From Bacillota bacterium (lineage in GTDB: Bacteria > Bacillota > Limnochordia > Darwinibacteriales > Darwinibacteriaceae), in the NCBI GenBank assembly GCA_012837385.1, contig DURH01000001.1, positions 65,349 to 129,348 on the forward strand: a stretch of 64,000 nt of DNA. The letters are read 5' to 3'. Position numbers and translations under genes: made by a program. This document shows positions 19,872 through 32,943 of the stretch, piece by piece. The notes under the pieces are model-generated. The model did no database searches and was not told the origin of the DNA. It saw only the letters and a list, made by a program, of their open reading frames with translations. Positions within the stretch are counted from its first letter, which is position 1. Every line of letters begins with the position of its first letter.

Positions 19872-20087
19872 ATGCCAATTATTGTTAGACTCGATCGGGT
19901 ATTGGCAGATCGCAAAATGCCCCTCAACGTTCTGTCTGAGAAGGTTGGGATTTCCGTGGTCAACCTGTCGAACCTCAAGACAGGCAAAGCCAAGGCCATC
20001 CGTTTCAGTACTCTAGAGGCCATCTGCGCTGCCCTGGAGTGTCAACCTGGCGACCTGCTGGAATACGAGCAGGTACCAGAGGACTGA
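19872..20087 (+). CDS. YozG-like XRE/Cro-type transcriptional regulator
   Basis: A 71-residue helix-turn-helix protein. It opens MPIIVRLDRVLADRKM, contains the helix-turn-helix LNVLSEKVGISVVNLSNLKTG and ends in the family hallmark CAALECQPGDLLEY. The ATG at 19872 has AGGAGG about seven bases before it. It is the usual partner of DUF2975 proteins and probably represses its own operon through the palindrome at 19199-19220. A terminator follows at 20149. Confidence 0.9.
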   Translation: MPIIVRLDRVLADRKMPLNVLSEKVGISVVNLSNLKTGKAKAIRFSTLEAICAALECQPGDLLEYEQVPED

Positions 20088-20148
20088 GTGCAGTGCAGTT
20101 TACAAATAATTCACGAGAAGTTTCGGTTGAAAAAGCATAAGCCCAGGT

Positions 20149-20174
20149 AGGCAACCAGCTGTGGTTGCCTTTTT
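20149..20174 (+). terminator. Intrinsic terminator after the DUF2975/XRE operon
   Basis: AGGCAACCA (20149-20157) pairs with TGGTTGCCT (20162-20170), followed by TTTTT. Confidence 0.88.
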
Positions 20175-20313
20175 AAATTGCCAACTCAGCATTTTCAGAA
20201 CCCAGTTTGTTCGAAAAGCGTAATATTTTCCGCGTAGGGAGGATTTACCTGGGAAGCGTGGAAGTAAAGGACAACATTCGCGCGCGAAAAAAATATTAAA
20301 GGGGTGTTAAGAT

Positions 20314-21828
20314 GTGAAGAAACGCAGTGCGCTGGTTGCAGTTGTCATGCTCCTAGTATTGGCATTCAGCACGGCTGTCTGGGCTGACAATGACACGCTG
20401 GTTATCGGAAGCGGCGCAGAAGCTGTGGGCCTTGACCCTAGGCTGGAAACGGACGTACCCTCGTTTGAACGCATTAACGTTATTATGGAGCCGTTAGTGA
20501 AGTTCGCCACGAACATGGAGCTTGTACCTGCTCTAGCCACAGAGTGGGATGTAAGCGAAGATACCATGACCCTGTGGTTTAAGCTGCGTGAAGGCGTCAA
20601 GTGGCATGACGGCACGCCATTTACCGCCGAAGATGTGAAGTACACCTATGAATGGGTACTCAATCCTGACAACGGTGCTCCCAATATGGGGCTCTATGCC
20701 GCGATCAGTGAAATTGAGGTGGTAAATGATTACGAAATCATCTTCCGCCTGGGCGAGCCCAATGCCTTTTTGATGAACAACATCGCTCGTATGCCCATTA
20801 CTCCGAAACACGATGGTGACCGCTCTGATTTCCGCCAGAAGCCTCAAGGCACAGGACCCTACAAGTTCGTATCCTGGACCAGGGATGACCGTTTGGTTTT
20901 GGTGGAAAACGAAGAGTATTGGGGCGGCAGGCCGAATATCCCCAATCTGGTGTTTAGGGCAATTCCCGAGAACGCCACTAGGCTTCTGGCCTTTGAAGCC
21001 GGTGAAATCGACATCTACCAAGGTGGCGTAGTGCCTCAGGAAATCACCCGTTTGGAGCAGGATCCCAAGTACGTAGTGCAGAGGACTCCTGGTACAGGTT
21101 ACAACTACCTTGGTTTCAACACTAAGGTGGGAGCCCTCTCCGATGTGCGTGTGCGTCAGGCTTTGAGTTACGTCATTAACCGTGAAGGCATTGTGAAGAA
21201 CGTGCTCAACGGGATTGGAACTCCGGGTATTGGGCCTGTTTCCATGTCCCTGCCCTGGTTTAATCCTGATCTGCCGCGCTACGAGTACAGCCCTGAGAAG
21301 GCCAAGGAACTGCTGGCTGAAGCAGGGTACAAGCCAGGTGACATCAACATCAGGCTGTTTACCAATGAGAACCCGGATCGGATCCGCATAGCAGAGATCC
21401 TGCAGTACGAAGCCCAGCAGGTTGGTATCAATGTGGAAGTGTTCGTGGAGGAGTGGGGTGCCTACTTGGCCCGCATCCAAGAAACTGACGACTTCGACAT
21501 CTTCATCCTGGGCTGGTCTGGCCAGCTTGACCCTGACCGTGCTATGATCCGTCAGTTCCACACCAATGGTTCGAATAACTACGGCAAGTATTCCAATGAA
21601 CGCGTCGACTATCTGCTCGACCTGGGTCGCACCGTGCCTCAAGAGTCACAGGAATCCATCGATATTTACCGCGAAGCTCAATACATCGTGGTAAGTGAGG
21701 TTCCTTACGGCTTCATAAACTACACCGAAGAAGTGGGCCTCCTCCATCCTTACATCGGCAACTGGGAGGTACACCCCTACGGTGCAGCAGCATGGCAGGA
21801 TGCGCACCTCATGACTAAGAGCAAATAA
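20314..21828 (+). CDS. Peptide/nickel-type ABC substrate-binding protein (family 5)
   Basis: A 504-residue SBP_bac_5 protein with a signal peptide (KKRSALVAVVMLLVLAFS...WA). No lipobox cysteine is seen, so it may be released or held otherwise. Family landmarks include LVPALATEWDVSED, the REGVKWHDGTPFTAEDV stretch and the C-terminal NYGKYSNERVDYLLD. It starts at GTG 20314 behind AAAGGGGTG. It binds an oligopeptide or similar compound outside the cell and passes it to the two permeases that follow. A hairpin sits between it and the permeases, which usually gives more binding protein than permease. Confidence 0.92.
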   Translation: MKKRSALVAVVMLLVLAFSTAVWADNDTLVIGSGAEAVGLDPRLETDVPSFERINVIMEPLVKFATNMELVPALATEWDVSEDTMTLWFKLREGVKWHDGTPFTAEDVKYTYEWVLNPDNGAPNMGLYAAISEIEVVNDYEIIFRLGEPNAFLMNNIARMPITPKHDGDRSDFRQKPQGTGPYKFVSWTRDDRLVLVENEEYWGGRPNIPNLVFRAIPENATRLLAFEAGEIDIYQGGVVPQEITRLEQDPKYVVQRTPGTGYNYLGFNTKVGALSDVRVRQALSYVINREGIVKNVLNGIGTPGIGPVSMSLPWFNPDLPRYEYSPEKAKELLAEAGYKPGDINIRLFTNENPDRIRIAEILQYEAQQVGINVEVFVEEWGAYLARIQETDDFDIFILGWSGQLDPDRAMIRQFHTNGSNNYGKYSNERVDYLLDLGRTVPQESQESIDIYREAQYIVVSEVPYGFINYTEEVGLLHPYIGNWEVHPYGAAAWQDAHLMTKSK

Positions 21829-21850
21829 GAAGTAACGCAAACGCAGAGGC

Positions 21851-21888
21851 AGGATGCCAGGTGTTGCACACCTGGTATCCTCCATTTT
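21851..21888 (+). terminator. Intercistronic hairpin, partial terminator or stabiliser
   Basis: AGGATGCCAGGTG pairs with CACCTGGTATCCT around TTGCA, followed by CCATTTT. The weak T run and the position between the binding-protein and permease genes suggest partial termination or 3' protection of the upstream message. Confidence 0.7.
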
Positions 21889-21910
21889 AGTAAAGGGTGG
21901 GTTTGTCCAA

Positions 21911-22894
21911 ATGCTACGTTACATTATTCGGCGCCTTGTTCAGATGATACCCCTGCTGATCGGAGTTTCCATCATTGTATTCCTCCTCGGGCACCTGGCC
22001 CCTGGCGATCCAGTCCGTCTGCTCTTAGGAGAAGAAGCGACGGAAGAAGACGTGGCTAGACTGAATGCCATCTACGGCTTCGATCAGCCCCTTCCCGTGC
22101 AGTATCTGCGCTGGTTCACCAGGGCTATCACTGGGGATCTGGGTGTGTCTATTCGCCAAACCATGCCTGTGAGGGCTCTCATCTTCGAGCGGTTGGGGGC
22201 CACTCTGGAACTGGCCATCTTCTCTGTGGTCATTGCTGTTTTGTTGGGGATTCCAGTGGGAGTGTTTGCTGCTACGCGGCGGGGTTCCCTCTGGGACTAC
22301 GTCAGTATGATCGTTTCATTGATCGGCGTGTCCATGCCTGGCTTTTGGTTGGGGCTGGTGCTGCTCTCTTACGTGGCCCTACATGTGCCTTGGTTACCCA
22401 TGTTCGGCAGGGACGCTTCGGTTTTTCAAGGCCTGTGGGTGCTGCTCACCCAATTCCGAGCAGATGTCTTCCTGACCGGATTGCGCCACATCCTGCTTCC
22501 GGCCACAGCCCTAGGAGTGAGCATGATGGCCATTATTGCCAGGCTGACCAGGTCCAGTTTGCTGGAGGTCTTGGGTAAAGACTATATCCGCACTGCCCAG
22601 GCCAAGGGGCTTAAGTACAGTATGGTAGTGCTCAAACACGGCCTGCGCAACGCACTGCTTCCGGTGATCACCATCGTGGGCATCCAATTCGGTGCTATGC
22701 TGGGTGGTGCAGTGGTTACCGAAACAGTATTTGCCTGGCCGGGGGTTGGCCGCCTAGTGGTGAACGCCATCAGCCAACGTGACTTTCCCTTGGTACAGGG
22801 GGGTGTGTTGATGATGGCAGTAGTGTTTACTTTTGTGAACCTGCTGGTGGATATCAGCTATGCGTTGGTCAACCCTCGCATCCGCTACGAGTAA
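21911..22894 (+). CDS. Peptide-type ABC permease, DppB/OppB family
   Basis: A 327-residue membrane protein with about six helices. The N-terminal MLRYIIRRLVQMIPLLIGV is characteristic of DppB/OppB, as is the EAA-type loop GKDYIRTAQAKGL. The ATG at 21911 follows AAAGGGTGGG; an upstream in-frame extension of 19 residues runs through the intercistronic hairpin and is less likely. It forms the pore with the next permease. Confidence 0.9.
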   Translation: MLRYIIRRLVQMIPLLIGVSIIVFLLGHLAPGDPVRLLLGEEATEEDVARLNAIYGFDQPLPVQYLRWFTRAITGDLGVSIRQTMPVRALIFERLGATLELAIFSVVIAVLLGIPVGVFAATRRGSLWDYVSMIVSLIGVSMPGFWLGLVLLSYVALHVPWLPMFGRDASVFQGLWVLLTQFRADVFLTGLRHILLPATALGVSMMAIIARLTRSSLLEVLGKDYIRTAQAKGLKYSMVVLKHGLRNALLPVITIVGIQFGAMLGGAVVTETVFAWPGVGRLVVNAISQRDFPLVQGGVLMMAVVFTFVNLLVDISYALVNPRIRYE

Positions 22895-22906
22895 GGAGGC
22901 AGAAAC

Positions 22907-23737
22907 GTGAAATACTTGCTGCGCAGTAAAAGCGCTGTAACTGGACTTATTCTGATCGGCATCCTAATTATCGTGGCGATCCTCGCCGAGGTTATAGCTC
23001 CCCATGATCCTTACAGAATGGACATTTGGAACAGTTACCTGGCACCTGAAGGTTTCTCAGGCAAGTACATCTTAGGAACAGACGATATGGGTCGGGATGT
23101 GCTCAGCCGAATTCTAGTAGGCAGCAGGGTGTCACTCCTGGTGGCAGCCACAGCCACCGGTGTTTCCCTGGTTCTCGGCGTTATTCTGGGAGCGGTGGCT
23201 GGCTATGTTGGTGGTGCTGTGGACGCGTTCATAATGCGGGTTATGGATTTGATCCTCGCTTTTCCTTCCATATTGCTGGCCATCGCCATTGTGGCCACGG
23301 TGGGTCCTGGCGTGGTGAACGCCATGTTTGCCATTGCCATAGTGCGCATCCCAGCCATGGTGAGGGTGACCCGCAGTATGGTTCTGGCCCTTAAGGAAGA
23401 GGAGTTTGTTATGGCTGGCCAGGCCTTGGGCCTGTCTGATGTAAGAATCTTGTTTCGCCATATTCTGATCAACTGTTTTGCCCCCATTTTGGTGGTTGCT
23501 TCTCTGAACATGGGAACAGCCATTACAGTGGAAGCAACCCTGAGTTTCCTGGGTCTAGGGGCCCAGCCTCCAGTGATCAGCTGGGGACGCATGTTGGCCC
23601 TAGGCAGGGAGGCTATCAGGACTGCACCTCATATGACCCTTTATCCCGGTTTAGCCATTGTTTTTACGGTGCTTGGTTTTAACCTCTTGGGGGACGGACT
23701 GCGTGACATCGGTGACCCGCAGCTGCGGGGGAGGTAG
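22907..23737 (+). CDS. Peptide-type ABC permease, DppC/OppC family
   Basis: A 276-residue membrane protein with about six helices and the DppC signature LGTDDMGRDVLSRILVGSR. The EAA loop reads EEEFVMAGQALGLSD. It starts at GTG 22907 behind AAGGAGG. A terminator ends the unit directly after it, so the two ATPases (DppD/DppF type) that normally complete this transporter are not in this operon or window and must be supplied from elsewhere. Confidence 0.9.
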   Translation: MKYLLRSKSAVTGLILIGILIIVAILAEVIAPHDPYRMDIWNSYLAPEGFSGKYILGTDDMGRDVLSRILVGSRVSLLVAATATGVSLVLGVILGAVAGYVGGAVDAFIMRVMDLILAFPSILLAIAIVATVGPGVVNAMFAIAIVRIPAMVRVTRSMVLALKEEEFVMAGQALGLSDVRILFRHILINCFAPILVVASLNMGTAITVEATLSFLGLGAQPPVISWGRMLALGREAIRTAPHMTLYPGLAIVFTVLGFNLLGDGLRDIGDPQLRGR

Positions 23738-23742
23738 GGAAA

Positions 23743-23770
23743 CGCCCTTGACAGGGCGCTTTCTTTTTTC
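23743..23770 (+). terminator. Intrinsic terminator after the peptide-permease operon
   Basis: CGCCCT (23743-23748) and AGGGCG (23753-23758) hairpin followed by CTTTCTTTTTTC. Confidence 0.82.
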
Positions 23771-23847
23771 CAGCATTGCATGGGAAGGGGCTACCTGGTA
23801 CCATTAAAGGAAAAGAGCCTGGCAGGTGCTGAAATGAGGTTTGGGTA

Positions 23848-26457
23848 ATGCGCAGAGTTGTGGTAGGGATTCTAGCCCACGTAGATGCAGGAAAAACTAC
23901 ATTATCTGAGAGCATGCTCTATCTAAGCGGGAAAATTCAGCGCTTGGGCAGAGTGGACAAGAAAGACGCCTATCTGGACACCCATGATCTGGAGCGGGCC
24001 CGGGGCATAACCATTTTCTCCAAGCAGGCCATTTTTGAATTCGACGGCACCGAGTTCACCCTATTGGATACTCCTGGGCACGTGGATTTTTCCACCGAAA
24101 TGGAGCGGACTCTACAGGTTCTCGACTGCGCCATCTTGGTAATCAGCGGCGCGGATGGGGTGCAGGGGCATACCGCCACAATCTGGCGCCTTTTGTCTCT
24201 GTACAAAGTGCCTGTTTTTCTCTTTGTGAACAAAATGGATCAGCCCCAGGCTGATCGCCAAGCGCTGCTGGCGGATCTGAGAAGCGATTTGGATCACCGC
24301 TGCACCGATTTCGGCAGCCCTGATTTCCTGGAGCAGGTGGCCCTCTGTGACGAAGGTTTGATGGACGAGTATCTGGAGGAGGACACCATTTCCCACCAGA
24401 CTATTCAGCGCGCCATCGCGAAACGCCAGGTGTTCCCGGTCTATTTCGGCTCTGCCCTCAGGGTAGAGGGGGTAGAGGAGTTTCTGGAAGGTTTGGCCCA
24501 GTTCGTACAGCCTTCCGCCTATCCCCAGAGGTTCGGGGCCAGGGTGTTTAAAGTCTCCCGCGATGAACAGGGCAGCCGCCTCACCCATTTGAAAATCACA
24601 GGCGGAACCCTGAGGGTAAGAGATGCGGTTTCCAACGGTGAGTGGGAGGAGAAAGTGAACCAAATCCGCCTCTATTCTGGGGAAAAATATGAGGTTGTTC
24701 AAGAAATTGGAGCGGGGGCGGTGTGTGCCGTGGTGGGCCTGAGCCGCACCAAGCCCGGGGAGGGGCTGGGAGTGGATATGGGAGCCCGGCCTCCGGTCCT
24801 AGAACCAGTGCTGTCCTACCGCATCATCCTACCTGCGGGCTGCGATGCCCGTACCATGCTGGCCAAGCTGAGCGAACTAGAAGAAGAGGATCCTGAACTG
24901 AGGATCGTCTGGGATGAGCAGCTTCAGGAAATTCAGGCGCAGCTCATGGGCGATGTGCAGACTGAGGTGCTGCAGAGCCTGATTGAACAGCGCTTCGATG
25001 TCCAGGTGCAGTTCGACGAAGGCCGGATACTGTACAAAGAGACCATCGCCAATGTTGTGGAAGGAGTGGGCCATTTCGAGCCCCTCAGGCACTATGCCGA
25101 GGTTCATCTGCTGCTGGAGCCTGGAGAGCGAGGCAGCGGGCTGGAGTTTGCCCTGGACTGCAGTGAAGATCTGCTGGCCAAGAACTGGCAGCGGCTCATT
25201 CTGACTCATTTGCAGGAAAAAACCCATGTAGGGGTACTTACAGGGTCTCCCATTACCGATCTTAAGATCACGGTGGCAGCTGGGCGAGCCCATAAGTCCC
25301 ATACCGAGGGCGGCGATTTTCGGGAAGCTACCTACCGGGCCGTGCGCCAAGGACTGAAAGAAGCCCAATCAGTCCTTTTGGAACCCTATTATTCCTTCCG
25401 GCTGGAGATCCCAGAAAAACAGGTGGGCCGCGCCATGAGCGATATTGAGAAGATGCAGGGCGTGTGGGAAATAGCTTCCTCCCAGGGCCAGATGGCGGTT
25501 TTGGTGGGGAGTGCGCCAGTGGTGAATATGCGCAATTATCACAAAGAGGTGGCAGCCTACACCAGGGGTCTGGGCCGCCTCTCCTTGAGCCTTGAGGGTT
25601 ACAGGCCCTGTCACAATGCCCAGGAAGTGATTGCCTCCTTTAATTATGATTCCGAGCGTGATGTGGAAAATCCCACAGGCTCAATCTTTTGTGCCGGCGG
25701 CACCGGCTTTTATGTGCCCTGGGACGAAGTCAAGCGTTACATGCATGTGGAACCGGTGCTTCCTCCCGAAAAGCCTGTGGCGCCCCCGCGGGCTGCTGTT
25801 AGAGCAGCCAGGGACATCGCTGATGATGAGGATCTAAGGTATTGGGATACAACGGCCAACCGGGGGCGGAAGGTAAAATGGAAAAGACGTACAGGGGTCA
25901 AACAGCAGGAACAGACCTCCCTGGTATCACTTCCAGAGCCCAGGGAAGAGTACCTCTTGGTTGATGGGTACAATGTTATCCACGCTTGGCCGGAGCTGCA
26001 GGACCTGGCCCAGGGAAACATGGATGCTGCTCGCATGAGGCTGCTGGACGCCCTCAGCAGCTATCAGGGGATCAAGAAGAACAGGATTATTGTGGTATTT
26101 GACGCCTATCGGGTGCAAAACCGCGCCATGGAAGAAAGCCACGACTACCACAACATCCATGTGGTGTTTACCAAAGAGGCCCAGACTGCTGATGAGTACA
26201 TTGAAAAGTTCGCCCATGACCATAAGAAAAAGTACGACATCGTGGTAGCCACTAGCGACGCCCTGCAGCAGGTAATTATCAGGAGTGCCGGCTGCGCACT
26301 GCTTTCCGCCAGAGAGCTTAGGGAAGAGATCGAAGCCGCTAAGGAGCAGGTGATGAGAACCTATCTTAGGCTGCAGAGAATCCGCCGTTCTTCGCTGCAG
26401 GACAGCCTAGCCACTGATATCAAAAAGCGGTTGGAAGACCTCAGAAGAGACAGGTAG
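23848..26457 (+). CDS. TetM/EF-G-like translational GTPase fused to a YacP/Rae1-like NYN nuclease
   Basis: An 869-residue fusion. Residues 1 to about 640 follow the Tet(M)-type ribosomal protection GTPase: G1 GILAHVDAGKTT at 7-18, RGITI at 52-56, DTPGH at 74-78, NKMD at 128-131, then EF-G-like domains II to V. From about residue 695 a NYN/PIN-like domain of the YacP (Rae1) family begins (YLLVDGYNVIHAWPEL). Candidate acidic catalytic residues are D706, D752, D782 and D804. Rae1 of Bacillus cuts mRNA in the ribosomal A site, and Tet(M) also binds there, so the fusion suggests a GTPase that delivers a nuclease to the A site. That joint role is inference. It is a single gene after a terminator. 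Confidence 0.92.
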   Translation: MRRVVVGILAHVDAGKTTLSESMLYLSGKIQRLGRVDKKDAYLDTHDLERARGITIFSKQAIFEFDGTEFTLLDTPGHVDFSTEMERTLQVLDCAILVISGADGVQGHTATIWRLLSLYKVPVFLFVNKMDQPQADRQALLADLRSDLDHRCTDFGSPDFLEQVALCDEGLMDEYLEEDTISHQTIQRAIAKRQVFPVYFGSALRVEGVEEFLEGLAQFVQPSAYPQRFGARVFKVSRDEQGSRLTHLKITGGTLRVRDAVSNGEWEEKVNQIRLYSGEKYEVVQEIGAGAVCAVVGLSRTKPGEGLGVDMGARPPVLEPVLSYRIILPAGCDARTMLAKLSELEEEDPELRIVWDEQLQEIQAQLMGDVQTEVLQSLIEQRFDVQVQFDEGRILYKETIANVVEGVGHFEPLRHYAEVHLLLEPGERGSGLEFALDCSEDLLAKNWQRLILTHLQEKTHVGVLTGSPITDLKITVAAGRAHKSHTEGGDFREATYRAVRQGLKEAQSVLLEPYYSFRLEIPEKQVGRAMSDIEKMQGVWEIASSQGQMAVLVGSAPVVNMRNYHKEVAAYTRGLGRLSLSLEGYRPCHNAQEVIASFNYDSERDVENPTGSIFCAGGTGFYVPWDEVKRYMHVEPVLPPEKPVAPPRAAVRAARDIADDEDLRYWDTTANRGRKVKWKRRTGVKQQEQTSLVSLPEPREEYLLVDGYNVIHAWPELQDLAQGNMDAARMRLLDALSSYQGIKKNRIIVVFDAYRVQNRAMEESHDYHNIHVVFTKEAQTADEYIEKFAHDHKKKYDIVVATSDALQQVIIRSAGCALLSARELREEIEAAKEQVMRTYLRLQRIRRSSLQDSLATDIKKRLEDLRRDR

Positions 26458-26472
26458 GTAAAGTGCCCGGGG

Positions 26473-26501
26473 TTGACACTGCGCCCTTGTAGTGATATAT
26501 T
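26473..26501 (+). promoter_or_regulatory. Sigma-A promoter of the DUF3796/XRE operon
   Basis: TTGACA (26473-26478), 17-base spacer, TATATT (26496-26501). The -35 is perfect and the spacing ideal. Confidence 0.83.
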
Positions 26502-26528
26502 TATAACATGAAGTTAGATTTATATCAC
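26493..26528 (+). promoter_or_regulatory. Operator-like inverted repeat over the start region
   Basis: GTGATATA (26493-26500) and TATATCAC (26521-26528) are perfect inverted copies separated by 20 bases, spanning the -10 box and the expected transcription start. Probably the binding site of the XRE protein encoded second in this operon. Confidence 0.58.
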
Positions 26529-26543
26529 AAAGGAGGATGCGGC

Positions 26544-26876
26544 ATGAATCGACTCAGCCTGCTGGGTTTCTTGGGGCTTCTGGGCCTTTTAGGGTGGGCA
26601 ACCAAGAACCCCGGGTTTTACGGCTTCTTTGGTTTCTTTGGCTTTTTTGCTTGGCGCAGGACTCTGGAAGATGAGCGTTTTCACGATAATTTAGGGAAGG
26701 CGGCTAAGAACGCTCTTGTGGCGGGCATCGCCCTTTTTCCCCTGATTGTGGTCTGGGCAGCCTTTACCTCTTTTCAAGAGGCCTATGCCGTTGGATTCGC
26801 GGTGAATTTCACCCTTCAGCTCTTGGTCTTCACCATCAGCCTAGCCCGCTATGAACAAGGAGGTGGGGGCAGCTGA
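26544..26876 (+). CDS. DUF3796 family small membrane protein
   Basis: A 110-residue protein with an unusual repetitive N terminus ([32 protein letters not shown]), which is the mark of DUF3796, and two further membrane segments. The ATG at 26544 has AAAGGAGG before it; an in-frame ATG at 26508 overlaps the -10 region and operator and is unlikely. DUF3796 proteins commonly precede a small XRE regulator, as here. Function unknown, possibly a membrane sensor for that regulator. Confidence 0.84.
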
Positions 26877-27076
26877 AACTTGTAACCAAGATCAAGGAAT
26901 ACCGAGCGAAACAGGACATTACCCAGGAGCAGCTAGCGGCTATGGTTGGGGTGCGCAGGGAGACTATTGTCCACCTGGAGGGAGGGCGTTATAATCCGTC
27001 TCTGAGGTTAGCCATGGATATCGCTCGTGTCCTGGGTACCAGCGTTGAGGAGATCTTTACGTTTGTAGAGGATTAA
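26873..27076 (+). CDS. Small XRE-type transcriptional regulator with a CTG start
   Basis: A 67-residue helix-turn-helix protein that reads (M)[19 protein letters not shown], continues [18 protein letters not shown] and ends in the family-typical [14 protein letters not shown]. No ATG, GTG or TTG exists at the right place. The first codon is CTG at 26873, exactly eight bases after AAGGAGGT, and it overlaps the upstream stop as CTGA, the same geometry as ATGA couplings elsewhere in this window. The rare start probably keeps the level of the regulator low relative to the membrane protein. Confidence 0.85.
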
Positions 27077-27087
27077 GGGAGTGTGGG

Positions 27088-27804
27088 ATGGGGATTATGG
27101 TGGAGCAGATTAAGCAGGAATTGGCCAAGTATGTGATACCCGAAAAAGCAGAGTTCCTTCCTAAGTTCTTTCAAGCCCATCCAGGAGGCTATGGGGAGGG
27201 AGATATCTTCTTGGGAGTGACAGTGCCCATGCAGCGCAAGGTGGCCAAGATGTTCTACCGCCGCCTTTCTCTGGGAGAATTGGAGGCGCTGCTTCAGGAG
27301 CCTGTCCACGAGTACCGCTTTACCGCCTTGGCCATGCTGGTTTACATGTATGAAAAGGCAGAAACTGAGGAAAAACGCAGGGAGATCGTGGAGCTCTACT
27401 TAGCCAATACAGACTATATCAACAACTGGGATCTAGTTGATGCTTCAGCAGACAAGATCCTCGGTCCTTATCTGTATGACAAGGATAGGAGCGTGTTGTG
27501 GGAACTAGCCCAATCCGGCTGCCTTTGGCAGGAGAGGATTTCTGTGATAGCCACTTTCCATTTCATTAAACAAGGAGATTTTGCCGATACACTGAAGCTT
27601 GCTGAGTTCTTCTTGGACCATGAGCATGACCTTATTCACAAGGCAGTGGGGTGGATGCTCAGGGAAATCGGCAATCGAGATTTCCAGACCGAGTTCGCTT
27701 TCCTCAAGGAGCATTACCAGAGAATGCCCCGCACCATGCTGCGCTATGCCATCGAGAAGTTTGAACCACAGCTGCGTAGGGACTTCCTGCAGGGCTTGAT
27801 CTAA
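27088..27804 (+). CDS. AlkD-like DNA alkylation repair protein
   Basis: A 238-residue all-helical HEAT-like repeat protein of the DNA alkylation repair (AlkD) family. Landmarks are LGVTVPMQRKVAKMFYR, EYRFTALAMLVYMYEKA, the NTDYINNWDLVDASADKILG segment and LIHKAVGWMLREIG. The NWDLVD motif and the tryptophan/aspartate positions are those used by AlkD to flip and excise alkylated purines. It starts at ATG 27088 behind GGGAG, twelve bases after the XRE gene, and may be transcribed with it. Function in base-excision repair is assigned by family. Confidence 0.9.
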   Translation: MGIMVEQIKQELAKYVIPEKAEFLPKFFQAHPGGYGEGDIFLGVTVPMQRKVAKMFYRRLSLGELEALLQEPVHEYRFTALAMLVYMYEKAETEEKRREIVELYLANTDYINNWDLVDASADKILGPYLYDKDRSVLWELAQSGCLWQERISVIATFHFIKQGDFADTLKLAEFFLDHEHDLIHKAVGWMLREIGNRDFQTEFAFLKEHYQRMPRTMLRYAIEKFEPQLRRDFLQGLI

Positions 27805-27838
27805 CAAAAAGCCAGGCCCGATTGACCGGGCCTGGCTG
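27803..27838 (-). terminator. Bidirectional-type terminator between convergent genes
   Basis: GCCAGGCCCG (27811-27820) and CGGGCCTGGC (27827-27836), ten perfect pairs with a six-base loop. On the minus strand it is followed by TTTTTG, so it clearly ends the small cysteine-rich gene; on the plus strand it lies right after alkD but has no T run. Confidence 0.85.
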
Positions 27839-27849
27839 CTAGTTATGCT

Positions 27850-28056
27850 CTACAGCTGCGTTAAGCGAACGTAACAGACTTTGGTGCATTGGATGATGGT
27901 CAGTTCGAATCTGGGGTCCGTTTCTTCCACTTCTAGAAAGGTTTCCCCAAATGCTCGGAGAAATCCGTTGATCTCGCCGCACTTGGTAGCAACCGTAACC
28001 CTGCGATCCAAGAAAGGTACCAGCCCTTCTGGACACTGGCAGCATTCGCAGCGCAT
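27850..28056 (-). CDS. Small cysteine-rich protein, paralogue of the LysM protein's C-terminal module
   Basis: A 68-residue protein opening MRCECCQCPEG. Its remaining part (FLDRRVTVATKCG ... TIIQCTKVCYVRL) aligns with the C-terminal module of the upstream LysM protein: F..R.V.V.T.CG...G.L...G, then C...C.VR. All three module cysteines are conserved. The ATG at 28056 is chosen because GGGAGG stands seven bases upstream; an ATG at 28062 is too close. The gene lies directly after the LysM gene. I do not know the family. Small, cysteine-rich and next to a LysM protein fits a spore coat or cortex component, as inference only. Confidence 0.68.
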   Translation of the reverse strand: MRCECCQCPEGLVPFLDRRVTVATKCGEINGFLRAFGETFLEVEETDPRFELTIIQCTKVCYVRLTQL

Positions 28057-28058
28057 GG

Positions 28059-28502
28059 TCATTCCTCCCTCGGCCCGTATCTAGGCACACGCACAAAGCA
28101 GATCTCGCTGCAGCTAACAACGATGGGATTGCCAGATTTCCCCTGCTGCAGGGCGATTGAGCTGTCGCCCACGAAAACCAGTTTACCAGACACGGTCCCG
28201 CAGGAAGTAGTCACTTCCACAAAGCGGTTGACAAAATCCCTGAGTGTGGCAGGACAGGGGCACGGCTCTTTCTTCGGCGGTGGCGGTGGTGGAACAGGAG
28301 CGGGGACGCAGAGTACGTCTCCTGGAAAGATCAGGCTGGGATTGGTGATATGGGGATTAGCGGCGATCAAAGCGTCCAGAGAAACGCCAAAACGCTGGGC
28401 GACGAAGAACATGGTGTCCCCTGGCACAACGGTGTATCGTCCTGAAAACCCGGGCGGGCAGTGGCTGGGAACTCGGGGAAAACCTTGGTGGCTGGGAAAC
28501 AT
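28059..28502 (-). CDS. LysM-domain protein with cysteine-containing C-terminal module
   Basis: A 147-residue protein with a short hydrophilic N terminus, one LysM domain (about residues 22-67: RYTVVPGDTMFFVAQRFG ... NPSLIFPGDVLCVP), a proline-rich linker (PAPVPPPPPPKKE) and a C-terminal module of about 50 residues with CG and C...C positions. There is no signal peptide, which is usual for spore coat LysM proteins such as SafA. AGGAGGAG precedes the ATG. A CATATATT element upstream resembles a mother-cell sigma -10. A role at the spore surface is plausible but inferred. Confidence 0.78.
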   Translation of the reverse strand: MFPSHQGFPRVPSHCPPGFSGRYTVVPGDTMFFVAQRFGVSLDALIAANPHITNPSLIFPGDVLCVPAPVPPPPPPKKEPCPCPATLRDFVNRFVEVTTSCGTVSGKLVFVGDSSIALQQGKSGNPIVVSCSEICFVRVPRYGPREE

Positions 28503-28535
28503 AAAGGTTCTCCTCCTCTCTGATAACTAGCATTG

Positions 28536-28545
28536 ATAATATATG
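28536..28545 (-). promoter_or_regulatory. Possible mother-cell sporulation (sigma-E/K-like) -10 element
   Basis: The minus strand reads CATATATTAT 35 to 45 bases before the LysM gene, close to the CATACAnT / CATAnnnTA consensus of sigma-E and sigma-K. A matching -35 is not clear. Confidence 0.3.
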
Positions 28546-28597
28546 CGGGCACGTCTTAACCTGAACCAGGAACGGAGAGCCTGATTGCTGTGGGTTA

Positions 28598-30253
28598 TCA
28601 CTCTAGTTCCAAGGAGTACTGGCGGATCTGGCGGTACACCGCCTCTTTGTGCTGTCCCTGGAGGATCTTGGGCTGCACCCCGAAGATGTAGGCCGGGTAG
28701 ATAGTAATGTCCAATACTCCTTGGGGGCCGATGGTGCAAGCCAGCAAAATGGTTTCCCAGGTTTCAGGTAGGTTGAGGTCAAAAACGAAGTTGCCCAGGC
28801 TGTAGGCGATGACGCAGCCTTCGTAGAACTCGATCCCCTGTAGAACGTGGGGGTGGTGGCCCAGCACTAGATCGGCACCGGCAGCGGCAGCCGCCTGGGC
28901 CAGCTTTCTCTGCTCTGGAGTGGGTTCATGCACGTATTCTCTGCCCCAGTGTATGGACACAACGACCACGTCCACAAGCTCCCTGAGCTTGCTGACATCA
29001 TCCACAATATAATCCAGCTCCGCCGGGGCAACCCCCGGTTCGTTTTCCGTCGCCCTCCAGCTGATGGGCTCCCGGGCATGGACAAACCACATCTCAGTGT
29101 AGGCCACAAAGCCCACCGTGATCCCATCCACTTCCCTTATTACAGGAGCGCGGGCCTCGTCTAAATCGCGTCCTGCTCCAACCCAGTCAATGCCATATTC
29201 TCGCAGCAGCCGCATAGTCTCCAGCAGGCCCCCATGGTGATAGTCCAGGGCATGGTTGTTGGCGAGGGATACGACATCCACACCAGCAAAAGCCAGCCCT
29301 TCCACAGCCTTGGGGGGAGCTTGAAACATGTTGATAAAGCGGCCTTCAGAGCCGATGGGCGACTCCAGGTTAGCCACGGTGAGTTCTGCACTGCGCAGCA
29401 AGGGGCCTGTATCTGAGAAGATGAACTCCCAGCCCTGTTCTAACCCCGTTTTTTTCACCTCGCGATTCAGCATAATATCGCCAACAGCCAAAAGCTGGAA
29501 CTGCTGCCCCCAAGGATTGGCCCAGGTTGTCTCCTGGGTGGCGAGATGGAGCTTATGCACTGCGTTTCCCTGCCAGTTCTGCACCCAGTCCCGAAAAAGC
29601 TCAGGAAGGCTTTTCGGCCGCCTGCTCAGGAAAAGGCGGCGGGTAAGGGGATAGGTGATCCGCCCAGCAACTGGGTCTCTGGGATCGATGCCGTCCAGAG
29701 TCAACACTTTCACAGCAGGCCTGCGGTCTTGGAGGGGAATTATGCCCAGTCTTCCCCGGCCTTTCTGAAGTTCTTCCACTACCTCCGCGGCGGATAAGTA
29801 CGGTACTGGCTGTTCCCACCAGGGATATCCGTCCAGAGCCAGCTCTTCGGCCACCAGCACCTCTTGGGGCTCGGTGGAGATCAGGCGGATCAGACTCTCC
29901 AGCTCCAAATCAACCAGGGAATCCCAGAACGGGACCACAACTACAGGTACCAAGGAGGCCAGCTGCCAGCTGATCAGCCCGGGAGTAGGTTCCCCCAGTT
30001 CCACAAGGTAGTCGAGTTTGCCTTGTTCCAGCTGGACGGCAAGTTCTGAAGCCTGTTCCAGCATCGCTTCAGTGTACTCCTGGCCGGGAAAGAGCCTGTG
30101 AATCAGCTGGCTGGAACACCCTGCCCAGCCTATCCTGGGAGGTGGTGGTGGACCGGCCAGCCAAGCTAGAACGGTCAGGACTGTTCCCAAAGCCAATAGG
30201 ACCAAAAACGGAGTCAAAAGAAGTGCGCGTCTGCGCAGGACCACTACTACCAC
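28598..30253 (-). CDS. Membrane-anchored CapA-family protein with an N-terminal binding-protein-like domain
   Basis: A 551-residue protein. Residues 10-33 form one membrane anchor. Residues from about 40 to 240 look like part of a phosphate/sulfate-type substrate-binding domain (SWQLASLVPVVVVPFWDSLV, GRLGIIPLQDRRPAVKVL). From about residue 253 a CapA/PGA_cap calcineurin-like domain follows, with LAVGDIMLNREV (D259), VANLESP, SLANNHALDYHHGG near 330 and GHHPHVLQG near 465. CapA proteins serve poly-gamma-glutamate or capsule synthesis in some Bacilli, but most homologues are uncharacterised metallophosphatases. GTG 30253 is chosen because GGGAGG stands eight bases upstream. Confidence 0.85.
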   Translation of the reverse strand: MVVVVLRRRALLLTPFLVLLALGTVLTVLAWLAGPPPPPRIGWAGCSSQLIHRLFPGQEYTEAMLEQASELAVQLEQGKLDYLVELGEPTPGLISWQLASLVPVVVVPFWDSLVDLELESLIRLISTEPQEVLVAEELALDGYPWWEQPVPYLSAAEVVEELQKGRGRLGIIPLQDRRPAVKVLTLDGIDPRDPVAGRITYPLTRRLFLSRRPKSLPELFRDWVQNWQGNAVHKLHLATQETTWANPWGQQFQLLAVGDIMLNREVKKTGLEQGWEFIFSDTGPLLRSAELTVANLESPIGSEGRFINMFQAPPKAVEGLAFAGVDVVSLANNHALDYHHGGLLETMRLLREYGIDWVGAGRDLDEARAPVIREVDGITVGFVAYTEMWFVHAREPISWRATENEPGVAPAELDYIVDDVSKLRELVDVVVVSIHWGREYVHEPTPEQRKLAQAAAAAGADLVLGHHPHVLQGIEFYEGCVIAYSLGNFVFDLNLPETWETILLACTIGPQGVLDITIYPAYIFGVQPKILQGQHKEAVYRQIRQYSLELE

Positions 30254-30385
30254 GGCGGTCGCCTCCCAGTAATATATACGGGAATACGGGAGGTGGCATG
30301 CGTCGCTTGAGTGCTTGCATTTCAGCCTCGGTTTTATACAAAAAGGCAATTTCAGCCAATTTTGGGGTTGTCTTTGTGCAAACGT

Positions 30386-30394
30386 TGGTATAAA
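30386..30394 (+). promoter_or_regulatory. Extended -10 promoter of the zinc-ribbon gene
   Basis: TGGTATAAA is an extended -10 element 23 bases before the start codon. A weak -35 (TTGTCT, 30368-30373) lies at 15 bases. Confidence 0.5.
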
Positions 30395-30416
30395 ATAACA
30401 TGGGGAGATAGTCAAG

Positions 30417-30782
30417 ATGTTCTTCATCGGCGTTTTCGGCGTACAAGACAAAAGCGAAACCATCAAGACAGAACAGGCCGTAACCTGCCCGGTGTGCGGA
30501 GCCTATGATCGCTTCGAGGTTATCCGGGTCTTTAGATACTTCCATTTCTTCTTTATCCCTCTGTGGAAATGGAACAAGCGTTTCTTTGTACGTACTCGGT
30601 GCTGCCAAAGGCTGTGCGCTTTAGATGACGAGGTGGGCAGGCGCATCGAGGAAGGCCAGCAGGTGGTGATCACCTCAGAGCATGTCCACTGCGGTGAACC
30701 AGTGCAGGCGGCGTGTTCCCACTGCGGTGCACAGCTGCACAGCTCTTTCAGCTATTGCCCCTACTGCGGAAATCGGATTTAG
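30417..30782 (+). CDS. Zinc-ribbon protein of unknown function
   Basis: A 121-residue protein with an N-terminal ribbon pair (CPVCGAYDRF ... TRCCQRLCAL) around a hydrophobic aromatic stretch (FRYFHFFFIPLWKWNKRFF), and a C-terminal double-CxxC ribbon (CSHCGAQLHSSFSYCPYCG). Such proteins are found in many Firmicutes and have no assigned role; zinc binding is expected. GGGGAGA precedes the ATG. It reads away from the CapA gene, from an extended -10 promoter. The aromatic stretch could lie at the membrane surface. Confidence 0.75.
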   Translation: MFFIGVFGVQDKSETIKTEQAVTCPVCGAYDRFEVIRVFRYFHFFFIPLWKWNKRFFVRTRCCQRLCALDDEVGRRIEEGQQVVITSEHVHCGEPVQAACSHCGAQLHSSFSYCPYCGNRI

Positions 30783-30910
30783 GGGCAGGCAAAACTCTGG
30801 AATTGTTTACGTTTTATTACTGGTACAGTAACTTAATCGTTGTAAAATACATGATTGGTGTTCGATGATCGAGGAGCAGACGCCAACACACACATTTTCG
30901 TGACGTCTCA

Positions 30911-31003
30911 ACTGAATATTTGGCAAACCATGGGAAACCATGGGGCGCAAAGCTATAGGGGCTAAGCACTCTTGTGTATGCCAGCCAGTTGCGGTTATTT
31001 AGT
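30911..31003 (+). promoter_or_regulatory. c-di-GMP-I (GEMM-I) riboswitch aptamer
   Basis: All landmarks of the class are present. P1 is ACTGAATA (30911-30918) with TATTTAGT (30996-31003). GGCAAACC follows; P2 is CCATGG-GAAA-CCATGG with a GAAA tetraloop; then GCGCAAAGC and TATAGGGGCTAAG. P3 carries the tetraloop receptor, UAAG (30963-30966) opposite UAUG (30977-30980) with CAC/GTG, and the 3' strand GCCAGCCAGTTGC. A 12-pair intrinsic terminator follows at 31011. It should set read-through into the FapA-to-PP2C operon according to c-di-GMP. On or off behaviour cannot be read safely from sequence. Confidence 0.94.
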
Positions 31004-31010
31004 GGTGGAA

Positions 31011-31046
31011 ATACTTTCTAACTGCCTGGTTGGAGAGTATTTTTTT
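31011..31046 (+). terminator. Intrinsic terminator of the c-di-GMP riboswitch expression platform
   Basis: ATACTTTCTAAC (31011-31022) pairs with GTTGGAGAGTAT (31029-31040), 12 pairs including two G-U, with a six-base loop, followed by seven T residues. It lies 20 bases before the first start codon of the operon. Confidence 0.92.
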
Positions 31047-31065
31047 GCGTGTGAGGGGGTTCATA

Positions 31066-32943
31066 ATGGGGTTACTGCGCAGTTTGGTCAATGACGAAGT
31101 GGACGGGGAGCAGGAGACGGAAATACCTCAGGAGAACGGATTGCAGGATCAGCATGATCAGCCGGGGCGACTCGCCATAATCAATGGGCAGCTGCACATG
31201 GAGGAGCCCAAGGGCAGGGGAGCTTGGCCCGTGCTTGTACCTGGGCCAAGGGTGAAACTCTATGATGGCGAACAGCTGGTTACCAAGCCCATAGTGGTGG
31301 AAAACATCGAAGGATTGTCCATTACCGTCGATCAGGAGCCTCCTGCCAGCGCGTATGAGGTGATTGTGTCGCGCGATAAAATGGAGGTGCTGCTCAAAAC
31401 AAGTTTCAGAACGGGCAGGGCTTTTCGGTTGTGCGACGCAGATTTCGAGCAGCGCTTGGTGCTCAAAGCTGAACCAGCGGCGGATCTGCCTGCTAAGCCC
31501 ATTGATCCGAAACTGGTCTTGGCCCATTTGAAGAAAGAGGGCATTCAGACTGATCTGATTCATCCTGAAGCCATCATCGAGGCCTGCCTGGGGCGTCAGG
31601 ACACGGAGGTGGTGATCGCCAGGGGGGTGGCACCTGTGCCTCCAGTGGACGGCAGGATTGAGATTGTTTGCAGCCTGCAGACCAGGTTCAGCAGCGAAGC
31701 CCAAGGTGATCGGGTGGACTTCTTAGATCGGGGCAGCTTTAACGCAGTGAACGCCGGAGACGTTTTGGCCTGCCTGCATCATCCAGTCCCAGGTACACCA
31801 GGGAAAGATGTGTACGGCAAAGTGGTGCCGCCTCCTGCGGCACGGTCGCCCCGTTTGGTGGCTGGCTCTGGAGTGAAATTGGTCAAAAATGGAACCATGG
31901 CGGTAGCTGAAGTGACGGGGCGTCCCATCCTCAGGCGTGGTGTGCTCCAGGTCAACCCTCAGCTGGTAATTGGGCAGAACGTTGACTTGAGTACGGGCAA
32001 TGTAGAGTTCAGGGGAGACGTTGCCGTGTTGGGAGATGTTCAAGAGTCTCTTACTGTGAAGGCCGGCGGTTCGGTGGATGTCCGAGGTAGCGTCTTTCAT
32101 GCAGACATCGTGGCGGAGGAAGATGTGATTATCTCCGATAAGCTCATCGGCGGTTCTGTGGTTGCCGGAACTGATCAGCCCGGCCTCACCAAAGCTGTGC
32201 GCCTTCTGAAACTGCTGGACCGGGAGTTGGAACAGCTGCTGGCGGCATTTCGGCAGTTAAAAGCGCACCCCAGGCTTTCTGTGGCGGACCTGAGCGTGCG
32301 TGGTGACGGCTACTTAATCAAGCTGATCTTGGAGGCCCGCTTTTCCCACATTCCCAAGAAGTTCGCAGTGTTGGACGCTCTGCTGGCTGGAGAGGCTCAG
32401 TCCAGCGAAGAGGAGCTGCTGACCGTAATTAATGGTGTAAGGGCGGCGGCCAAGCGCTTTTTGGGTGCGGCGCCTTTGGAGTTTAAGCGTATCGAGGAAG
32501 TAGCGCGAGAGAAAATCCACTTGAGAGCTTACGGGGCAGAACTGGAGCAGGCGCTGGATTCCGCAGCCGATATCTATGTCTATTACTGCCAGAATGCTAA
32601 GCTGGAAGCCACCGGCAACATTACCATAACCGGTCCCCTCGCCTACGATTGTGAAGTTGTGGCTGGGGACACTTTGAGGGTGGCAGGCAACTGCCGGAGC
32701 GGGTTCTATGCCGCGACAACCGCCATCCTTGCCAAGACGGTGGGGGCCACGGGCATGGGTAAAACCGAACTCTGTGTGGGTGACAAAGGCGTCATTGGCG
32801 CGGACAAGTTCTGTCCGGGAGTGCGGCTGAGAATTGGCTCGGTGCAGACTGTGATCGAGCAGGAGTGTCTGACCACGCTCTTTTATGTGCAGGACGGAAA
32901 GCTGCACAGTAGGGAATTTCGGCAAGGAGGAGCAGTATGCTGA
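31066..32943 (+). CDS. FapA/DUF342 family protein
   Basis: A 625-residue FapA (DUF342) protein. A variable N-terminal part (about 1-150) precedes the conserved core (PPVDGRIEIV ... LACLHHPVPGTPGKDVYGK ... VTGRPILRRGVLQVNPQL) and a beta-helix-like repeat region (GNVEFRGDVAVLGDVQESL, AGGSVDVRGSVFHADIVAEED). It is soluble. The ATG at 31066 follows GAGGGGG. In Vibrio FapA links sugar uptake to flagellar assembly; most Firmicute homologues are unstudied. It is first in a five-gene overlapping operon downstream of a c-di-GMP riboswitch, which points to motility or surface control. Confidence 0.87.
   Translation: MGLLRSLVNDEVDGEQETEIPQENGLQDQHDQPGRLAIINGQLHMEEPKGRGAWPVLVPGPRVKLYDGEQLVTKPIVVENIEGLSITVDQEPPASAYEVIVSRDKMEVLLKTSFRTGRAFRLCDADFEQRLVLKAEPAADLPAKPIDPKLVLAHLKKEGIQTDLIHPEAIIEACLGRQDTEVVIARGVAPVPPVDGRIEIVCSLQTRFSSEAQGDRVDFLDRGSFNAVNAGDVLACLHHPVPGTPGKDVYGKVVPPPAARSPRLVAGSGVKLVKNGTMAVAEVTGRPILRRGVLQVNPQLVIGQNVDLSTGNVEFRGDVAVLGDVQESLTVKAGGSVDVRGSVFHADIVAEEDVIISDKLIGGSVVAGTDQPGLTKAVRLLKLLDRELEQLLAAFRQLKAHPRLSVADLSVRGDGYLIKLILEARFSHIPKKFAVLDALLAGEAQSSEEELLTVINGVRAAAKRFLGAAPLEFKRIEEVAREKIHLRAYGAELEQALDSAADIYVYYCQNAKLEATGNITITGPLAYDCEVVAGDTLRVAGNCRSGFYAATTAILAKTVGATGMGKTELCVGDKGVIGADKFCPGVRLRIGSVQTVIEQECLTTLFYVQDGKLHSREFRQGGAVC

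Follow-up and report, generated by a model that had tools for sequence, protein, structure and literature searches.

In Bacillus subtilis, free Rae1 (YacP) works on ribosomes that have paused: an efp mutant is suppressed when rae1 is lost and also by the loss-of-function variant R166P (PMC6613710). Rae1 is listed among the nucleases that cleave the mRNA within the A site of the ribosome ahead of tmRNA action (PMC12320835). Proteins that join a YacP-like NYN ribonuclease to a GTPase of the Tet type were noted by Atkinson 2015 in ten Clostridiales species, with antibiotic resistance as the guessed role (PMC4342817). The fusion itself is thus already published and not new; a functional study of it was not found in the open-access papers searched.

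Here, we analyzed such a fusion located on a stretch of 64,000 nucleotides, referred to as the window, which provides all coordinates of the fusion gene and its parts. Lineages that carry the nuclease on a GTPase and have the operon copy of rae1 deleted constitute a natural experiment on how Rae1 picks its ribosomes and on what the GTPase contributes.

Gene and domain architecture

The fusion gene is defined by its open reading frame, Pfam matches, and comparison with relatives. It occupies exactly positions 23848-26457 of the forward strand, starts with ATG and encodes 869 amino acids. A complete EF-G/Tet-type GTPase at residues 1-634 is followed by a linker (residues 641-697) and an NYN nuclease (residues 703-867), and all Pfam domain matches exceed their cut-offs. 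A previous interpretation made from the letters alone, the sequence-only reading, had assigned the N-terminal two thirds to the GTPase. A GTPase is present, but its share is nearer three quarters, since it includes a subfamily-specific C-terminal piece that extends to about residue 634.

All parts of the gene described in the following are encoded on the forward strand. The G domain (residues 3-221, 23854-24510; Pfam GTP_EFTU, 1e-51) contains the P-loop AHVDAGKT and the motifs DTPGH and NKMD, and its G' insert is short. Next come domain II (residues 229-306, 24532-24765; EF-G_D2), domain III (residues 319-390, 24802-25017; EFG_III), domain IV (residues 392-507, 25021-25368; EFG_IV) and domain V (residues 509-591, 25372-25620; EFG_C). 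In an alignment of 55 rows the GTPase motifs are invariant, bar single near-invariant positions, e.g., H11 and A14 of the P-loop, and the motif core of the G domain shows no variation across 107 fused rows. The C-terminal piece (residues 588-634, 25609-25749; C588 ... SxFC ... W625 ... MH633) was delimited by column counts and alignment; it is present in fused and unfused members of the subfamily and absent from Tet(M) and EF-G. A candidate zinc site, C588/H589/C615/H617/H633, was dropped, as residue 617 is a glycine in the window and variable in the family.

The AlphaFold2 model of the whole protein, built with the 55-row alignment, has a mean pLDDT of 79.4 and a pTM of 0.61. With a pLDDT below 50, the linker (25768-25938) is predicted to be disordered, and it is slightly basic across the family (statistics on residues 637-699, 55 rows). 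The nuclease mostly reaches a pLDDT of 80-89, with weaker stretches near residue 760, at 800-810 and at the C-terminal end.

Directly upstream of the fusion gene lie genes (20314-23737) which we take to encode a dipeptide-type ABC transporter, and which precede the fusion at 6 loci only. Between the last of them and the fusion, a pattern scan of the sequence revealed a terminator-like hairpin with a T run (23743-23765, forward strand), and hence the fusion is probably transcribed on its own. Clustering of flanking open reading frames from 80 named loci and the window yielded no partner present in more than 11 loci. In an Rfam search covering positions 20000-31000, the fusion showed no leader element; besides one sub-threshold chance match, the search reported a c-di-GMP-I riboswitch (30912-30996, forward strand; 69.1 bits against a cut-off of 35) just upstream of a large open reading frame (31030-32943).

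Distribution and origin of fused and unfused forms

Forty relatives were searched for the fusion. By our reading of the search output, 25 of them contain it at full length in a single frame. In 4 others it is broken up across contigs or frames, and 11 are devoid of it. Furthermore, 553 loci encode a relative, of which 80 named ones from other assemblies were retained. These loci, with 53-71% identity, originate from Bacillota MAGs, Desulfosporosinus, Acetivibrio, Clostridium manihotivorum, Eubacterium and many Lachnospiraceae. A one-frame fusion in 25 of 40 relatives, together with the 80 named loci, shows that neither read-through by chance nor a joining error in the assembly explains the gene; the fusion of GTPase and nuclease in the window is real. 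The statement in the sequence-only reading that similar fusions exist in Clostridia turned out to be right, their occurrence being Clostridia-wide.

An even draw from the phylum comprised 398 genomes, and 33 of them gave a match to the GTPase at E ≤ 1e-80. Twenty-five of these are fused, six are unfused members of the same subfamily, and two are more distant. The 25 fusion genomes fall into 11 families. Unfused GTPases were also found in Paenibacillus, Lactobacillaceae, and Subdoligranulum. Four of the six genomes with an unfused GTPase encode a free YacP, a proportion close to the background of 189 in 373, and co-occurrence of the two was therefore dropped as proof of a partnership. The remaining two, G354 and G403, have no YacP, so that in these genomes the GTPase has a role without Rae1. 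G403 (locus L159) belongs to the class of the window.

Some individual loci deserve mention. At G015:C3:31655-34397, GTPase and nuclease appear as two matches about 226 bases apart, which may reflect a frameshift, a split gene or an assembly error. Nearly the whole fusion is also contained in MT835514.1 (15276-17792) and MT835563.1 (5421-7958), two records of human faecal origin that are named 'Bacteriophage sp.' and carry no annotation, with 51-52% identity over 97% and 94% of the query, respectively; it may be phage cargo or bacterial DNA there. On the megaplasmid pMP118 of L. salivarius UCC118, the unfused GTPase (locus L120, 3529-5920) adjoins rpsN (S14) and a small putative metal homeostasis gene.

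In a tree of the NYN domain with 52 fused and 44 free sequences, the fused label needs 2 changes, compared to 31.9 in shuffles. The nodes grouping the fused rows reach 86 and 90 (not starred), and a free YacP on a long branch stands beside them. The GTPase tree of 69 rows places unfused rows of the Paenibacillus type (97) as sister to the fused rows (98), while the unfused GTPase of L. salivarius nests inside the fused clade; this lineage has probably lost the nuclease part. On the basis of these trees, the simplest reading is that the fusion arose once, with subsequent losses and transfers.

Replacement of the free rae1 gene

YacP matches were obtained in 214 of the 398 phylum genomes, 3 of them below the family cut-off; 189 of the 214 belong to the 373 genomes without fusion, and two genomes without fusion list two matches. 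Fusion genomes encode exactly one YacP, the fused copy, in 25 of 25 cases. Under independence, the chance of 25 misses is about 0.49^25 (2e-8), or about 4e-4 when calculated by the 11 families, both values being hand calculations in which kinship is handled just by the family-level count.

The genomic context points in the same direction. Free yacP is located directly 3' of rlmB in all seven genomes inspected for it, and yacP was found behind rlmB in none of the eight fusion genomes examined. In six of these eight, including the genome of the window, rlmB is directly followed by sigH, whereas in G103 and G389 rlmB has other neighbours. The name rlmB rests on the rlmB model; the surrounding genes, such as sigH, mrnC, and cysS, are named from cluster membership and from recognition of the operon.

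Two families contain both forms. In family f57, one genome (G256) has the fused form and four have a free yacP; in family f71, two genomes have the fused form and one has the free gene. Both forms never occur together in one genome of these families. The nuclease of G256 clusters with the fused NYN domains and apart from the free copies of its own family, which looks as though a fused gene had arrived and the resident rae1 had been lost afterwards. The fusion takes the place of the housekeeping Rae1 gene, whose usual slot between rlmB and sigH is empty. The sequence-only reading had envisaged a GTP-driven device loading a nuclease onto stalled or drug-bound ribosomes; as the fusion replaces rae1, stalled ribosomes are the better half of this idea.

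Nuclease domain

The C-terminal part (residues 703-867, 25954-26448) matches PF05991 (NYN_YacP) over the whole profile (positions 1-166 of 166) at 2.1e-52, with 177.9 bits against a cut-off of 24.6. Its only matches among PDB sequences are the B. subtilis YacP entries 5mq9 (1.5e-28) and 5mq8 (6.4e-28). Because the list of structure matches for the full-length protein was filled by EF-G chains and thus uninformative on the nuclease, the domain was folded alone (mean pLDDT 84.8). Foldseek matches of this model at E ≤ 0.001 are solely Rae1 chains, with an rmsd of 1.6 over 143 columns and TM values of 0.71/0.76 for 5mq9_B. The YacP/Rae1-like NYN domain predicted at first sight is hence established by profile and fold, and the fold other than NYN/PIN that would have spoken against it did not appear.

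Four aspartates, D706 (25963-25965), D752 (26101-26103), D782 (26191-26193) and D804 (26257-26259), were assigned to the catalytic site by their invariance. As the sequence-only reading had stated for the window, all four acidic positions are in place, and each is an aspartate in all 106 distinct fused and all 44 standalone NYN domains, as well as throughout the 55-row alignment.

Other parts of the domain differ between both forms. Position 818 is an arginine in 44 of 44 free Rae1 sequences, while the 106 fused ones have Leu in 82 cases, Arg in 15 and Val in 9, the window having L818. A tryptophan within the last 25 residues occurs in 27 of 44 free and in 1 of 106 fused sequences, counted on untrimmed frames, as columns after 866 are unreliable in NYN sequences trimmed to the profile match. 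The window nuclease lacks both Arg-818 and the C-terminal W/R tail, two features of free Rae1 that were observed here and are not published defining features. The mean net charge of the NYN domain is -1.9 in free and -7.9 in fused copies; positions 743, 744, 755, and 812, however, are more basic in the fused domains, so that the surface did not change in one direction only. As the free and the fused set are each internally related, few independent events stand behind these residue counts. Residues kept in free Rae1 have eroded in the fused domain, and the active site is intact. The site of R166P, the B. subtilis loss-of-function mutation introduced above, falls within the W/R tail. Taking Arg-818 and the tail as docking residues, on the basis of their conservation and this one mutant, we infer that docking to the ribosome may have passed from the nuclease to the GTPase.

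These data also bear on the idea of a loose fusion, in which Rae1 acts freely and is just tethered, so that GTP hydrolysis and cutting have neither a mechanical nor a timing link. The long, disordered linker and the probable loss of the nuclease in the L. salivarius lineage would fit such an arrangement. We consider it improbable, given that free Rae1 has been displaced in 25 of 25 fusion genomes from 11 families and that the fused NYN domain is altered in parts which free Rae1 keeps.

GTPase domain and its relation to Tet proteins

The sequence-only reading had described the GTPase as Tet(M)-like. It does share domains I-V of the EF-G/Tet type and intact GTPase motifs; the best PDB match of the fusion by sequence is TetO (7e-72), and a structure search with the GTPase part retrieves EF-G structures and TetM 3j9y (Z 30.6, rmsd 11.0, 599 aligned). 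Nevertheless, it scores 418.5 bits against the cut-off of 775 for the NCBIfam model tet_protect, and likewise 302.3 bits against the cut-off of 659.4 for the EF-G equivalog TIGR00484. In the quick tree of 69 rows, fused and unfused members form a branch of their own (96), and the Tet/Otr proteins stand apart (99).

Differences are also found at the tip of domain IV. Loop III (residues 479-492, 25282-25323) has the length of that in Tet(M) but other residues: L505, S508, P509, and V510 of Tet(M), numbered after PMC4750697, align to R480, K483, S484, and H485. Loop III is central to Tet(M), yet the triple alanine mutant S508A/P509A/V510A stays active (PMC4750697), and because of this tolerance the differences are still compatible with drug protection. 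Column counts over 107 fused and 9 unfused rows (one fusion cut by a contig end, labelled unfused in the tree, being counted as fused) reveal a signature of H409, H415, E418, H460, H482, H485, GGDFR, R497, and R500. It is largely common to fused and unfused members, and neither Tet(M)/Tet(W) nor EF-G has the set as a whole; the EF-G columns are partly empty due to trimming of the rows to the matched part. Single positions do occur elsewhere, namely H409 and DFR in Tet(M) and H482 in EF-G.

By the tests run, the GTPase is not a Tet protein, and its sequence places it in a group that is sister to the ribosomal protection proteins of the Tet type. Of the earlier description, the translational GTPase with intact motifs holds, whereas clade, cut-off, and domain IV tip argue against a Tet-like function, which makes drug-bound ribosomes the weaker half of the proposed target.

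A ribosomal protection protein against tetracycline or another drug, with an RNase added, would be the reading along the lines of Atkinson 2015, where a role in resistance was proposed (PMC4342817). The domain layout of Tet(M)/Tet(O), the TetO match and the RefSeq naming of many relatives as 'TetM/TetW/TetO/TetS family' are in favor of it. We regard it as having a slim chance in view of the score and tree position reported above, the deviating loop III, with the reservation that Tet(M) tolerates substitutions there, and the fact that a single-copy chromosomal gene replaces rae1. Moreover, two fusion genomes (G103, G167) encode a separate Tet-type protein besides the fusion, matching at 33% identity.

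RefSeq and plasmid records label fused and unfused members either as 'TetM/TetW/TetO/TetS family tetracycline resistance' or as 'translation factor GTPase family protein'. Resistance is likely over-called in these annotations, and housekeeping genes labelled as tetracycline resistance may lead to inflated resistome counts.

Another explanation assigns the main role to the GTPase, as a non-Tet factor for stall relief or recycling that frees blocked A sites, while the nuclease cuts elsewhere via the linker, e.g., at a trailing or collided ribosome, in rRNA or in tRNA. Consistent with this are the unfused GTPases in 6 of 398 phylum genomes, two of them devoid of YacP, and in Paenibacillus, Lactobacillaceae, and Subdoligranulum, the conserved domain IV tip of its own kind, and a linker whose low pLDDT would permit a reach past the A site. 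On the other hand, the NYN domain is the only YacP of the genome and retains every active-site residue, which makes it likely that it fulfils the mRNA role of Rae1; we therefore judge this explanation unlikely.

Proposed mechanism

Our preferred reading, to which we assign a probability of roughly 0.6, is a GTP-driven delivery factor for an A-site mRNA endonuclease, in which the sole Rae1 of the genome is carried by a GTPase of the Tet sister group and in which cutting would be coupled to GTP. Judging from the architecture, the GTP-bound factor would bind to paused ribosomes whose A site is either open or blocked, with domain IV extending to the decoding centre like its counterparts in EF-G and Tet(M). 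GTP hydrolysis may then shift or free domain IV, whereupon the NYN domain, attached through about 60-70 disordered linker residues, the first of which lie at the position of the Tet(M) C-terminal helix, would enter the vacated A site and, by homology, cut the mRNA like free Rae1 of B. subtilis. Domain IV and nuclease probably act in turn, since both cannot fill one A site. After the cut, the A site would be empty and accessible to tmRNA or other rescue factors. Should delivery be GTP-driven, a large group of gut and sediment bacteria would possess a new type of ribosome rescue.

More tentatively, and doubtful in its full extent, the GTPase could be a dedicated motor that loads the mRNA endonuclease into the A site, with hydrolysis gating the cut. 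The fusion would then have displaced free Rae1 in anaerobic Bacillota, and free Rae1 would have an unrecognised partner in the unfused GTPase found in Paenibacillus and its relatives.

Comparison with known systems

RelE-type nucleases have a fold unrelated to that of Rae1 and are under toxin-antitoxin control. They resemble the fusion in cutting A-site mRNA before rescue, being named beside Rae1 (PMC12320835), and differ from it in having no GTPase. Tet(M) and Tet(O) share with the fusion a GTPase with domains I-V, a short G' insert and a C-terminal extension. The identity to the fusion GTPase is limited to 29-31%, however, the domain IV tip is a different one and the clade is separate; compared to Tet(M), the fusion GTPase has an extra piece of about 25 residues ahead of the C-terminal helix. 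Rae1/YacP of B. subtilis (5mq8, 5mq9) has the same fold, belongs to the same family and possesses all active-site aspartates, but it is a free protein of about 170 amino acids, encoded next to rlmB, which keeps the arginine at the position of residue 818 and the W/R tail and has no GTPase.

In the open-access papers searched, we found no mention that the fusion replaces rae1, that its GTPase forms a separate subfamily with unfused members, or that the nuclease has changed. The closest described proteins are the fusions of Atkinson 2015, composed of the same Tet-type GTPase and YacP-like NYN RNase (PMC4342817). There, they are counted as Tet proteins with a possible role in resistance, whereas the present analysis reveals a separate subfamily with unfused relatives, a vacated rae1 locus and a changed nuclease surface.
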